Assembly (NCBI GenBank): GCA_022794495.1
Contig: JAAWEX010000004.1
Coordinates: 1-33,639, forward strand
Source of the DNA: Lawsonibacter sp.
GTDB lineage: Bacteria > Bacillota > Clostridia > Oscillospirales > Oscillospiraceae
Length of the DNA: 33,639 nucleotides
Reading direction: 5' to 3'
Positions 8,286-21,071 of the stretch are shown here, one piece after another. Position 1 is the stretch's first letter. Every line of letters starts with the position of its first letter. The position numbers were made by a program, and so were the translations under genes. Below the pieces are notes generated by a model. That model searched no databases. It was given only the letters and a program-made list of their open reading frames with translations, and was not told where the DNA came from.

Positions 8286-9008
8286 TTAGGATTCAGAAAA
8301 ATCCTTTCTAACATCCCCATAAATCGCCTGATAGTGCTGGTAATTAGGAAACTTATTCTGGAAATGCTCCGCCATGCACCGCGCGGCCCCCGCGGAGTTC
8401 CCAGCTTTAATGGCCTCAAAAATTCTCAGATGGCTTTTATAAAAATCCTTTCCATCCGTATAGCTGATATGGTCTGAGATCAGGCCCATCATACTGGAAT
8501 AGATAGACTCAATCAGTTTGTTATCGCAGAGCTCAACGATTTGATAGTGGAACAGATTGTTATAAAATTTCCGTTTTGCCATGTCCGCGCCAGCTTCCGT
8601 CTCCCGTCTCATGGCATCCATCAGCTCCTGAAACTCCGCCAACTGCTCCCGGGTAATTTTCACCGCCGCCAGGGCCGCCATTTGGACCTCCATAATATAG
8701 CGGAACTCCAAAATGTCATCTCCGTTTTTGTGGTCCAGATAAGAACGGACAGCCAGGGGATTGAGAAGCTCTACCGAGTCTGAGGCGACGTAATTCCCAT
8801 CACCCTGGCGGCTGCGGATAACCCCCATCATTTCCAGCGCGCTGATAGCCTGCTTCAATGCGGGACGTCCCACCTGAAGCATCTCCGCCAGCTGCCGCTC
8901 GGGAGGAAGGCGGTCTCCTTTTTTCAGCTCCCCCCGCTCAATCATGTCCTGAATCTGCGCGGCAATTTTTTTATATACAGATACATTGCTCTCGATTGGC
9001 TGAAACAT
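8286..9008 (-). CDS. GntR-family (FadR/FCD-type) transcriptional regulator
   Basis: IAAQIQDMIERGELKKGDRLPPERQLAEMLQVGRPALKQAISALEMMGVIRSRQGDGNYV winged helix plus helical FCD-type C-terminal half. Confidence 0.93.
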   Translation of the reverse strand: MFQPIESNVSVYKKIAAQIQDMIERGELKKGDRLPPERQLAEMLQVGRPALKQAISALEMMGVIRSRQGDGNYVASDSVELLNPLAVRSYLDHKNGDDILEFRYIMEVQMAALAAVKITREQLAEFQELMDAMRRETEAGADMAKRKFYNNLFHYQIVELCDNKLIESIYSSMMGLISDHISYTDGKDFYKSHLRIFEAIKAGNSAGAARCMAEHFQNKFPNYQHYQAIYGDVRKDFSES

Positions 9009-9082
9009 ATCAAATGTACCTTTCTGTTAAATTTTGATTCATGTATCTGCATTTTATCACACGGGGGCGTTGAAAATCAAGC

Positions 9083-9877
9083 CTAAAGAAACTGATAAAA
9101 GTTGTAGACGCATATTGCCATAATAACGCCCATCAGCCCCAGAAAAAGCCTGTTCACCGCTGCCGCGTCCATTTTCTGGTTCAGCGCCCGGCCTGCCATA
9201 CCTCCTCCAATCCCGCCGGCAATCATCAAAAGCAGCATACCGGCCTCGATATCGGGGACCGACCCCGTCCAGCAGGTGTAGAGCAGGCTGGCGGCTTGAG
9301 AAAAAAAGATGATGTACAGGGAATTCTGCGCTGCGGCTTTCATATCCATGGAAAATAAAAAAAACAGGACAATCAGGTCGATAGGCCCGCCTCCAATTCC
9401 CAAAAACGACGACATCAGCCCCAGAGCCCCGCCGGCCAGAAGACAGGAAAAGGGATTGGTGAGATGATAGGTTCTGATCCGGTCCCGCTTGACGGTGTAG
9501 AGCATCAGGCCCAGCATCACGAAAAACAGGCAGCACGACTGGACCGCTCCCACCCGCTCTGAGTTCGGAAGCCTGGACAGCAGAACACGAAAAATCTCCT
9601 TTCCCGCGATGCCGCCGAGGGCTGCGCCAATAGCCAAAGGCGTGCTCACGCTGCGGTTAATCAGGGTATCCCCCTTTTTAAACGCCCGGAGCATGGAGCA
9701 GCTGGTCATAGACAGGACGGTGCAGGCCGACAAAAAGCTGACTGCCGCTACGCTCAGACCGCTGACCGCGTCCAGGACTGGCTTAATCAGCACGCCGCCG
9801 CCAATGCCGCAGATCGCCCCCACAACAGACGCGCCAAAGCTGACGGCCAAAAATAATAGATACAGACCAACACCCAT
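9083..9877 (-). CDS. TauE/SafE-family sulfite/organosulfonate exporter-like membrane protein
   Basis: GASVVGAICGIGGGVLIKPVLDAVSG...LGLMSSFLGIGGGPIDLIVLFFLF repeated motifs of TauE/SafE. Confidence 0.9.
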   Translation of the reverse strand: MGVGLYLLFLAVSFGASVVGAICGIGGGVLIKPVLDAVSGLSVAAVSFLSACTVLSMTSCSMLRAFKKGDTLINRSVSTPLAIGAALGGIAGKEIFRVLLSRLPNSERVGAVQSCCLFFVMLGLMLYTVKRDRIRTYHLTNPFSCLLAGGALGLMSSFLGIGGGPIDLIVLFFLFSMDMKAAAQNSLYIIFFSQAASLLYTCWTGSVPDIEAGMLLLMIAGGIGGGMAGRALNQKMDAAAVNRLFLGLMGVIMAICVYNFYQFL

Positions 9878-9900: not shown

Positions 9901-11295
9901 CTATTTTTTAGCGCCGCGCCTTCTGCCATAGGAGAGGGCCTCCAGCAGGATATAACAGAGCAGAATCAGCGCAGGTACCGCTATAAGGAAGCCTGTTTGA
10001 CCATCCTCCACCCCCATCAGCGCAGCGGGCGTTATAACATTGGAGTGCCATGGAATCCAAAGGCTCATAAAGAGACAGCCCACAAAAGCGGAACGGACTA
10101 AATCCAGCCGGTTCCATCCCCTTTTTGCATAGATTGGCGCCAGACATGAGGCCGTAAAAATAAAGGAGCACATCCCGGAGGCCGATATCAAATTGGTGAC
10201 AAAGCCCGCTAAAACGGTGACAAGGTCTCCTTTCCAGCTCTGGTCCGCCCAATTCAGCAGCGGGCCCAGCACCGCCTCGGTCACGCCTCCACTCTCAAAC
10301 AGGCCAAACAGGGCAAAGGCAAACACAAATAAAATAGCGGTGTCCGCCATGCTTTTGATTCCGCCGGTCTCAAAGACCCGCAGCAAATCTCCCGTCCAGT
10401 CAGAAAAATTTCCGCCCTCCCAAAGGGCCTGCACCGCCTGTTTTACCGAAACGCGCTGATAAAACAGCGACAGCAGAACCCCGGCCAGTGCGCCGGACGC
10501 CAGAGTAATCACCGTCGGCTGCCGTTTGACCAGCAGAACCACCACAAGCACCAGGGGCAGAAGCGCGGGCCATCCCAGCCGCATCGAGACAGTCAGTTCC
10601 TGGTAAAACGCTTCCCCTCCGGCTTCTGTTCCGCCCTCCAAGGGGACCAGGCGGTTTAAGACCCCATACATCACCGCGCACAGCACGGCAGCCGGGCCTG
10701 TCATTCTTCCCTGATACCGAATGCTTTTCATCAGATCCACACCGGCCAGAGAGGCCGCCGCATTGGTGCAGTCCGCCGCGGGGGACAGGGCATACCCGAG
10801 AAAACCGCCCGCCGTAACCGCGCCGACGCACAGCTGAGCCGGAAACCCCATAGATCTGCCCGTCGCCAAAAGCACTGCGCCAACCGTGCCGCAGGCGCCG
10901 AATACCGTCCCGGTCAGAAAGGCAAACAGAAGAACCACGCAAAAGGCGACAGGAAGATACCACTGAGCGCGGATGATCGAAACGCCCACCGCGGTCATGA
11001 ACGGAATGGCGCCGCACTGATTCCAGGCTCCGATCATTGCTCCAGAACAAAAGAGAATCAGAATGGGAGAGACCGCCTTTTTGCAGGAATCGGTCATGCC
11101 GGTTTGCAGTGCTTCAAACGGATACCCTTTCCCACGCAGAAGCAGAAACGAAGCTGTCCAGGCCAGAAAAAAGAGGGGCTGAACCTTTGTTTGAAGCAAA
11201 AGGGTGGGGAGAAGGATCACCAAAAAGGAGACTGACAAAATCAGCAGAGCATATCCGAACGGAAGCTGCTCCCGTTTGGGATGTTCGTCTCTCAT
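9901..11295 (-). CDS. NhaC-family antiporter-like transporter (copy B)
   Basis: GAMIGAWNQCGAIPFMTAVG...FLTGTVFGACGTVGAVLLATGRSMGFP...GYALSPAADCTNAAASLAGVDLM. Confidence 0.82.
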   Translation of the reverse strand: MRDEHPKREQLPFGYALLILSVSFLVILLPTLLLQTKVQPLFFLAWTASFLLLRGKGYPFEALQTGMTDSCKKAVSPILILFCSGAMIGAWNQCGAIPFMTAVGVSIIRAQWYLPVAFCVVLLFAFLTGTVFGACGTVGAVLLATGRSMGFPAQLCVGAVTAGGFLGYALSPAADCTNAAASLAGVDLMKSIRYQGRMTGPAAVLCAVMYGVLNRLVPLEGGTEAGGEAFYQELTVSMRLGWPALLPLVLVVVLLVKRQPTVITLASGALAGVLLSLFYQRVSVKQAVQALWEGGNFSDWTGDLLRVFETGGIKSMADTAILFVFAFALFGLFESGGVTEAVLGPLLNWADQSWKGDLVTVLAGFVTNLISASGMCSFIFTASCLAPIYAKRGWNRLDLVRSAFVGCLFMSLWIPWHSNVITPAALMGVEDGQTGFLIAVPALILLCYILLEALSYGRRRGAKK

Positions 11296-11366: not shown

Positions 11367-12809
11367 TTATACCTCGGCCTGCTGTGTGCCGCCCATCTCG
11401 GCGCGTGGAATCCTGGCGATGCCAAATCCTGTAAAGCCCCAGAGGATGGCAAACAGGAAGCCGGTGTAACAGAAAATGGTCCAGGGGAAATATTCCATCG
11501 TAGGCACGCCCAAAGTGCCCGCCATGTATGCTCCTCCGGCAGACCAGGGCACCAAGGGGATGACGCAGGTGCCGGCGTCCTCCAGCGTCCGGGAGAGGTT
11601 CTTAGCGTCCAGTCCCCGCTCCTGGAAGGCATCCTTAAACAGCTCGCCGCACAAGAGAATCGGAATATAGGCGTTGCCCACCACAATTCCGGTAATCAGG
11701 GTGGCAATAACAGTTACCAAAATCAGGGAGCCATCGCTGTGGACAAAGCTCTTCAGGGTATCCAGAATCGTCTCCATAAAGCCGCCCGCGCTCATGGCCC
11801 CCGCGAACAGGAAGGCGCATAGGACCTTCAGCACAGTGGTCATCATGCTGTTCATGCCGCCCCGCTCCAGAAGAGCTTTGATGGGAGCGGCGACAGCCTC
11901 GGGATCAATCGCCGGGAGCATGGACAGCTGGAAGCCCCCAAAGCCCGCCGTGATGACAGAACCGATTGCCGCCCCCTGGAATATCATTGCCAGAGCGCCC
12001 GCCGTCAGGGCGGCGGTGAACATAACCGGAATGGTGGGCTTTCCCATGGCCGACCCCACCAGAACGATAATCAGCGGGAGCAGAAGCAGCAGATTAAACT
12101 GGAACGTGGAGGCCAGGCCGTCCATCATCTCGGTGGCAGCGGAGGACTCGGCGGTGGAGACCACCGCGCTGGAGCGGCCCGCGATGAAGTAGACTGCCAG
12201 GCAGACCAGGCTGGCCGGGAGTGTGGTATAGAACATATGCCGGATGTGCTCAAACAGAGTTGTCCCGGCGGCTACCGGGGCCAGATTGGTGGTGTCGGAG
12301 AGAGGGGACATCTTATCGCCGAAATAAGCGCCCGAGATAATGGCGCCGGCCGCCGCCGCCATATTGACGCCAAGCCCGGAGGCGACGCCGATCAGGGCCA
12401 GGCCCACCGTGCCCACGGAGCCGAAGGAGGTGCCGGTGCAGACGGAGACAATGACCGTGATGATAAAGGCGGACACAAGGAACATGGACGGGCTGAGCAG
12501 CTTCAGGCCATAGTAGATCATCATGGGGATGGTGCCGGAGAGCATCCATGTGCCAATAATCAGGCCGACAAACACAAAGATAAAAATGGCCATAAAGGAT
12601 TTCCCGATTTTTTCCGATACCGCCTCCGATACCTGATCCCAGGTGGTGCCGTACAGCCGGGCCAGCACGACAGTGAAGAAAGAGACGACCAGCAAAAGCA
12701 GCTCCACACTATAGCGGTATATTCCGAAGCCAATTCCCATCACCAGGGCCATCACAATGATGGGCAGGACCGCAACAGCAAATGGGGGTTTTTTATTCAT
12801 ATGAGTCAC
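11367..12809 (-). CDS. NhaC-family Na+/H+ antiporter-like transporter (copy A)
   Basis: FVGLIIGTWMLSGTIPMMIYYGLKLLSPSMFLVSAFIITVIVSVCTGTSFGSVGTVGLALIGVA...GAYFGDKMSPLSDTTNLAPVAAG. Confidence 0.93.
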   Translation of the reverse strand: MTHMNKKPPFAVAVLPIIVMALVMGIGFGIYRYSVELLLLVVSFFTVVLARLYGTTWDQVSEAVSEKIGKSFMAIFIFVFVGLIIGTWMLSGTIPMMIYYGLKLLSPSMFLVSAFIITVIVSVCTGTSFGSVGTVGLALIGVASGLGVNMAAAAGAIISGAYFGDKMSPLSDTTNLAPVAAGTTLFEHIRHMFYTTLPASLVCLAVYFIAGRSSAVVSTAESSAATEMMDGLASTFQFNLLLLLPLIIVLVGSAMGKPTIPVMFTAALTAGALAMIFQGAAIGSVITAGFGGFQLSMLPAIDPEAVAAPIKALLERGGMNSMMTTVLKVLCAFLFAGAMSAGGFMETILDTLKSFVHSDGSLILVTVIATLITGIVVGNAYIPILLCGELFKDAFQERGLDAKNLSRTLEDAGTCVIPLVPWSAGGAYMAGTLGVPTMEYFPWTIFCYTGFLFAILWGFTGFGIARIPRAEMGGTQQAEV

Positions 12810-12839: not shown

Positions 12840-13796
12840 TTAGTCAATGGACTCTCCCAAGGTTTCGGTCATCTTTTTGTATTCCTCCGCAAATTTTACA
12901 GTGATTGGGCCCGGAACCTGCTGGCCAATCTTTTTTCCGTCGATCATTTTAACCGGCACAATTTCGCCTACGGTACCGCAGATGAATACCTCGTCAGCGT
13001 TGTAGTACTCAGAGACGGAGACATTGCGCTCCTGTACCTCCATTCCCATATCCTTGGCAATCTGAATCATGGTTCTCCTGGTAATGCCGGGGAGCTGGGA
13101 GTCCAGAGTAGGTAAAACCAAGGCCCCATCCTTGATCATTTGCAGGTTGGTGGAGTTTGTCTCCGCCACATAGCCGTTTTGGTCCAGCATAATGGCCTCG
13201 TCGGCTCCCTGGCGGATGGCCTCGCAGGCCGCCATGATCTGGTTGAGCTGGTTGCAGCAGTGAATCTTTGGGTCCATGTAAGAGGGGGAGTAGCGCTTGA
13301 GCCAGGTGGTAATCAGAGTAATACCGTCTTTATTGAAAATCGGAGGCTTCTGGTCTACGCAGATTACAATGGAGGACTGCGTGATGTTCAATGTGGGGTG
13401 CATGCCGGTCTGGGCCTTGAAGCCTCTAGTGACCTGAAGGCGCATGTGAATGTCGTGGAAACCGGCCTCAATATTTCTTTTTACCAGCTCCTTAACAATC
13501 TGCTTCATCTCGTCCTTGGTCTTGCCAATCTCAATGCCCAGAGTATAGCAGGACTCATACAGCCGCTTGATGTGCTCGTCCAGCCGGTATACCCTCCGGT
13601 CATAAGCGCGGATCCCCTCATACACGCCGTCGCCGTGCTGGAAGCCGCTGTCGTAAACAGAGATGACCGCTTCTGATTTTCTTACGAAGTCCCCATTAAC
13701 ATAGAGAATTGTATCCGCAATTTTTTCACCATTCAGCATAATGGAGCCGTCAGGGGTAAGCTGGGACAGTTTGTACATTGTAGTCTCCTCCTTCAA
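12840..13796 (-). CDS. Class IV (fold type IV) PLP aminotransferase, branched-chain/D-amino acid type
   Basis: VYDSGFQHGDGVYEGIRAYDRRVYRLDEHIKRL...HCCNQLNQIMAACEAIRQGADEAIMLDQNGYVAETNSTNLQMIKDG...LPGITRRTMIQIAKDMGMEVQERNVS. Confidence 0.93.
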   Translation of the reverse strand: MKEETTMYKLSQLTPDGSIMLNGEKIADTILYVNGDFVRKSEAVISVYDSGFQHGDGVYEGIRAYDRRVYRLDEHIKRLYESCYTLGIEIGKTKDEMKQIVKELVKRNIEAGFHDIHMRLQVTRGFKAQTGMHPTLNITQSSIVICVDQKPPIFNKDGITLITTWLKRYSPSYMDPKIHCCNQLNQIMAACEAIRQGADEAIMLDQNGYVAETNSTNLQMIKDGALVLPTLDSQLPGITRRTMIQIAKDMGMEVQERNVSVSEYYNADEVFICGTVGEIVPVKMIDGKKIGQQVPGPITVKFAEEYKKMTETLGESID

Positions 13797-13844
13797 TGAT
13801 GCTTCTTATTATGTTTCGCTTTGGGTATTTGGTGTTATGGACAT

Positions 13845-13857
13845 TTGGTAATACCAA
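13845..13857. promoter_or_regulatory. Putative GntR/FadR-type operator TTGGTAATACCAA
   Basis: Perfect 13-bp palindrome containing TGGTNNNACCA, located at the predicted transcription start of the promoter below. Confidence 0.65.
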
Positions 13858-13885
13858 TAATAAACGACCATACAGAGTTTGTCAA
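13857..13885 (-). promoter_or_regulatory. Strong sigma70-type promoter for aminotransferase operon
   Basis: Minus strand TTGACA (13880-13885), 17 nt, TATTAT (13857-13862). Confidence 0.75.
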
Positions 13886-13988
13886 GAGATATAAAGAGAT
13901 TTTTTCATAGCAGGGTGTTTTTTGTCATAACACACAGCTTCCTTTGGCCGCTATGGTGTATTTTAACGCCGCAAATAATTGTTAAAAG

Positions 13989-14055
13989 GCTGGCATTCAT
14001 CAGAATGCCAGCCCTAGCTTGTCGAAAGGCCGCCCTGAAAGGGGCGGCCTGTTTT
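13989..14055 (-). terminator. Tandem hairpins/terminator after aspartate kinase gene
   Basis: Minus strand AGGCCGCCCC-TTTC-AGGGCGGCCT then GGCTGGCATTC-TGAT-GAATGCCAGCC-TTTT. Confidence 0.8.
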
Positions 14056-20815: not shown

Positions 20816-21071
20816 GAATCAAAGCATTGGGCCGCCGGGGGCGGCGGCCCTCATTCCTGCTCGGTGCGTGATGGGCTCTTTTAAACCCACATTTCTAAAA
20901 CGGGACGCCCCCCTCACAGCGCGGCTTGCAGGCCTCCCGGCCCCCTATGAGGTCAGCTGGACGTTGGAAGCAGAAAAACGCTGTGGAGGCGACCCACCTG
21001 CCATTCGTGCAGGTTTTAATTGGGCCCACACGGCCAGAGCGGGGTAAAAAAACAGATGTCTCAGCCTTTGG

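Follow-up and report, generated by a model that had tools for sequence, protein, structure and literature searches.

The 33,639 nt stretch analysed here (the window) carries five genes on its minus strand, the first of which encodes a class IV, branched-chain-aminotransferase-like aminotransferase (12840-13778; Pfam Aminotran_4, 3.5e-52; NCBIfam PRK08320, 282 bits, below the cut-off of 363). It is followed by genes for an NhaC antiporter (11367-12809; TIGR00931, 479.5 bits, above the cut-off of 370), a second NhaC-family protein (9901-11295; Pfam, 4.5e-28; TIGR00931, 209.6 bits, below the cut-off), a TauE/SafE-family permease (9083-9877; Pfam TauE, 4.4e-28) and, last, a regulator with Pfam GntR and FCD domains (8286-9008). 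These assignments confirm the aminotransferase-NhaC-NhaC-TauE-GntR order given in the initial annotation for the operon headed by the promoter described below. A literature search found no paper joining NhaC, GntR and a branched-chain aminotransferase. Between the operon and the upstream aspartokinase gene, on the same strand, lies an intrinsic-terminator-like hairpin with a 13-bp stem followed by UUUU (13986-14015; fold -23.3 kcal/mol, z -6.5); since it follows the aspartokinase gene, transcription of the operon most likely starts afresh here. Elsewhere in the window there is a 6S RNA (RF00013) at 20851-21049 on the plus strand, scoring 67.2 bits against a gathering threshold of 46.4.

Upstream of the aminotransferase gene, the minus strand reads TTGACA (13885-13880), a 17-nt spacer and TATTAT (13862-13857). 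This promoter scores 11/12, the highest of the seven promoter-like sites in the 6 kb scanned (shuffled sequences gave 4.6 such sites), and its near-consensus character is thereby confirmed; TTGACA occupies this position in 6/6 orthologs. A perfect palindrome, TTGGTA-T-TACCAA (TTGGTATTACCAA, 13857-13845), had been placed directly after the -10 hexamer; it is present, and it shares the last T of the hexamer rather than just following it. The predicted start site, at about 13850, falls inside the palindrome, as had been proposed, and the claimed full match to the consensus operator of the FadR subfamily, TNGTNNNACNA (PMC2230225), also holds, the window reading TGGTATTACCA. The 13-mer TTGGTANTACCAA has a single exact match in the window, with a shuffled expectation of 0.58 when two mismatches are allowed. 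The core TGGTNNNACCA alone is not rare, since it occurs 15 times in the 1.95 Mb genome. The palindrome proves to be one edge, the first unit, of a longer array with an 8-bp period.

Five further genomes have an orthologous aminotransferase-NhaC-...-GntR cluster (L025, L026, L027, L052 and L057). In all five the aminotransferase gene is first (86-92% identical) and gntR last, with NhaC followed by NhaC2 and/or TauE in between; L025 and L026 have NhaC2 without TauE, L027 has TauE without NhaC2, and L052 and L057 have both, in the full five-gene order of the window. The GntR orthologs are 65-70% identical when intact; that of L057 is in two frame-split pieces (68 and 53%). L057 has the operator array and an aminotransferase gene that matches without a break, while both NhaC1 and gntR are interrupted by apparent frame shifts, one per gene; these are either sequencing errors or early decay. 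Close GntR orthologs are rare, being found in three of 64 genus genomes (the window's own included), and the same three have the aminotransferase ortholog. The remaining carriers are Clostridiaceae bacterium 1XD21-72 (L027), one genome in the genus of L027 (L052) and one in its family (L057). No further GntR ortholog was found at strict cut-offs in 401 family and 394 order genomes, an absence that means little because even draws of genomes omitted the two genus members that have GntR.

The comparative test suggested for the palindrome gave a divided answer: an element is present upstream of all five orthologous operons, but the palindrome is perfect in only two of the six leaders (window and L027), and the conserved part is the 8-bp array. 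In the other four leaders the left arm reads GGAC instead of GGTA and the TNGTNNNACNA consensus, found in the window and L027, is missed, with TGGACTTACCA in L025 and L026 and AGGACTTACCA in L052 and L057. A perfect palindrome is therefore the exception in this set. What all six operons share is a run of three to five ACCA(A) half-sites, repeated in tandem every 8 bp, under a TGG/AGG arm. Aligned gap-free on the first TACCAA, the window leader reads ATTGGTAT TACCAAAT GTCCATAA CACCAAAT ACCCAAAG, the direct units covering 13850-13819; L025 reads GATGGACT TACCAATT TACCAAAA AACCAACA TACCAAGA; L026 reads AATGGACT TACCAATT TACCAAAA CACCAACA AGCCAGCA TACCAAAT; L027 reads ATTGGTAA TACCAATT TACCATAA TACCAAAA; L052 reads AAAGGACT TACCAATT TACCATAC ATCCAGAT TGCCACAC; and L057 reads AAAGGACT TACCAATT TACCAAAA GTCCAAAA (A)TACCAAA, its fourth box being one base out of register.

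Conservation is highest in the first direct unit. Mean pairwise identity among the six orthologs is 0.96 in half-site 1 (TACCAAAT, an 8-bp unit at 13843-13850), 0.80 in half-site 2 (GTCCATAA, 13835-13842) and 0.65 both in half-site 3 (CACCAAAT, 13827-13834) and in the inverted left arm (ATTGGTAT, 13851-13858), as against 0.27-0.31 in the flanks of the array; the weak half-site 4 (ACCCAAAG, 13819-13826), with CCA in register in the window, lies at 0.35, slightly above the flanks. All of these are on the minus strand. In 6/6 leaders a TAT-A/T-A/T-T box lies 16-17 nt beyond TTGACA. The distance from the -10 hexamer to the start of the array ranges from 0 nt (window) to 15 nt (L057), which means that array and promoter do not stand in one exact phase.

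The 8-bp period was reached by 0/2000 dinucleotide shuffles of the leader in the window, L025 and L026, and by 5/2000 in L027, and periods of 7, 9, 10 and 11 were far less unusual against such shuffles; the test covered these four loci, L052 and L057 having been found later. A matrix built from the other five leaders scores the window site at 28.8 bits, with the next best site in 33.6 kb at 2.9; when each of the six loci is left out in turn, the sixth site scores 28.8-45.2 bits and the next site at most 11.3 in every locus. We also scanned four whole genomes, including the window's own (about 70% complete), for a three-box pattern, allowing one mismatch over 12 bases. The array was found solely at this operon, other one-mismatch matches being few and scattered; the pattern is the same when read in reverse, which makes the control built into the scan uninformative.

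The protein encoded by the last gene belongs to the GntR family, FCD (FadR) subfamily, combining a GntR winged helix (PF00392, 1.8e-16, cut-off passed) with an FCD domain (PF07729, 9.8e-23). Residues H154, H193 and H215, candidate metal ligands of the FCD domain, are invariant in ten relatives. The recognition-helix stretch VGRPALKQA is invariant in five aligned orthologs, and four of five distant relatives read VSRASxREA, the fifth (L059) reading VSRSAVREA; this difference appears to be in line with a change of motif.

The closest described parallel to the array is the operator of Escherichia coli NanR, (GGTATA)3, read by a Zn-binding FCD member of the FadR subfamily of GntR proteins. The best NCBIfam model for our regulator is NanR, and the NanR structure 6on4 is among its top PDB matches. 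We rejected an identity as NanR itself, since the model score is 104.9 bits against a cut-off of 260 and the protein has no long N-terminal extension. NanR has a 32-residue extension for cooperativity, and residue 13 of our protein aligns with NanR residue 34, making it about 21 residues shorter. The direct repeats of NanR have an 8-bp unit, TGGTATAW (PMC4494728), to which the unit of the present array, read on the other strand as ATTTGGTA, is close, the period being 8 bp in both. Downstream of the polymerase site, three NanR dimers bind the three repeats cooperatively; at least two closely spaced repeats are needed (PMC8012715). By contrast, the operator here includes an arm in inverted orientation and as many as five half-sites, and the operon is without sialic acid genes.

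We propose, with a probability of roughly 80%, that the GntR/FCD protein encoded in the operon uses 13858-13819 as its operator, a NanR-like site of multiple half-sites lying over the start site and serving repression. What we observe is the sequence, its conservation, the confinement of the array to this operon in the four genomes scanned, the gene order and the family membership; we infer the protein's binding, its repression, its arrangement on the DNA and its ligand. An inverted TGG arm and head-to-tail ACCA(A) half-sites at 8-bp steps would lie over the start of the strong TTGACA-17-TATTAT promoter, where, in the absence of ligand, dimers of the FCD protein would occupy several half-sites and block RNA polymerase. 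Binding of a small ligand at the FCD histidine site would then release the protein, switching on aminotransferase-NhaC-NhaC-TauE(-GntR). The presence of the aminotransferase and the transporters makes an amino acid or oxo acid on which the operon acts a plausible ligand. In outline, the operator may thus work like the repeat operator of NanR; we call it and its regulator a variant, as the N-terminal extension of NanR is absent and the FadR consensus is missed in 4/6 operators. The earlier suggestion that the operon's own GntR protein represses this promoter is in keeping with the GntR and FCD domains, the conserved element over the start and the co-occurrence of the orthologs; its premise that the palindrome is the key feature is not, since the palindrome is not what is conserved.

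If this NanR-like reading is right, a so far uncharacterised FCD protein from anaerobic Clostridia-like bacteria gains a precise, testable candidate operator and target operon. The direct-repeat layout is described for NanR within the FadR subfamily in the sources cited, and the present array would be a further case in which related regulators differ in operator grammar, some using a palindrome and others an array of direct repeats. As a tentative suggestion on the origin of the array, an FCD clade without the NanR extension could independently have gone from a palindrome to an 8-bp array, with RPALKQA replacing RASxREA; such a clade might, equally tentatively, line up several adjacent dimers through a different contact.

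A simpler scheme, with one GntR dimer on TTGGTATTACCAA only and the other boxes as weak accessory half-sites having no separate role, seems to us unlikely, although it has several points in its favour. The palindrome fits the FadR-subfamily consensus (PMC2230225), TGGTCAGACCA is present in the loci of distant relatives, and many GntR-family palindromes have weaker accessory half-sites 7-12 nt away (PMC4494728), to which the adjacent half-sites here could be likened. However, 4/6 orthologs depart from the consensus, with GGAC as left arm; boxes 2 and 3 (0.80 and 0.65) are conserved as well as or better than that arm (0.65), and two to four further boxes follow here at the 8-bp spacing, rather than one weak box. 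It is less probable still that some other regulator, encoded elsewhere, recognises the array, or that the GntR protein is an activator rather than a repressor. Several other GntR proteins are encoded in the genomes, but the scan of four genomes met the array nowhere except at the operon with this gntR, and among the genus genomes the operon tracks the presence of the regulator; the array lies at the start site or shortly beyond it, where a repressor site rather than an activator site would be expected. Finally, the predicted transcript includes most of the array in 6/6 genomes, yet it is highly improbable that the ACCA repeats work in the leader RNA as the site of an RNA-binding protein, given that the TGG arm of the window abuts the -10 hexamer upstream of the predicted start, that the leader has no stable fold (z +0.5) and no matching Rfam family, and that DNA operators of NanR and the FadR subfamily have boxes of this kind.

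The closed, autoregulated unit that the initial annotation also inferred has support only in part. The regulator gene is indeed the last of the operon, but it is preceded by a candidate promoter of its own, TTGATT-18-TAAAAT with a TG before the -10 hexamer (extended -10; minus strand, 9080-9051), which has no array. Promoter-like sequences also precede gntR in L025, L026 and L027. Because the scan yields seven sites where shuffles yield 4.6, the gntR promoter is a candidate only; gntR may be transcribed from the operon, and autoregulation is uncertain. The sequence GTGTG(A/C)TAWAMT of window 9051-9080 also occurs in L025 and L026.

Distant FCD relatives (L028-L030, L058 and L059) are without the aminotransferase operon and therefore bear on motif geometry only. 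Those of L028, L058 and L059, 33-40% identical, have TGGTCAGACCA sites in their loci; we take relatives with TGGTCAGACCA-like palindromes to be LldR/lactate-type FCD regulators. They share the TGG...CCA geometry with the window, and differ in reading VSRASxREA rather than VGRPALKQA; the palindrome here is mostly degenerate and the array longer. In L058, an ACCA stands exactly 8 bp beyond the palindrome TGGTCAGACCA, and EtfBA and a FAD-linked oxidase come next. This site (9563-9582, TGGTCAGACCAtaatACCA), next to the gene for a 40% identical FCD regulator, is likely to be the operator of a lactate/hydroxy-acid regulator with the same 8-bp accessory box.
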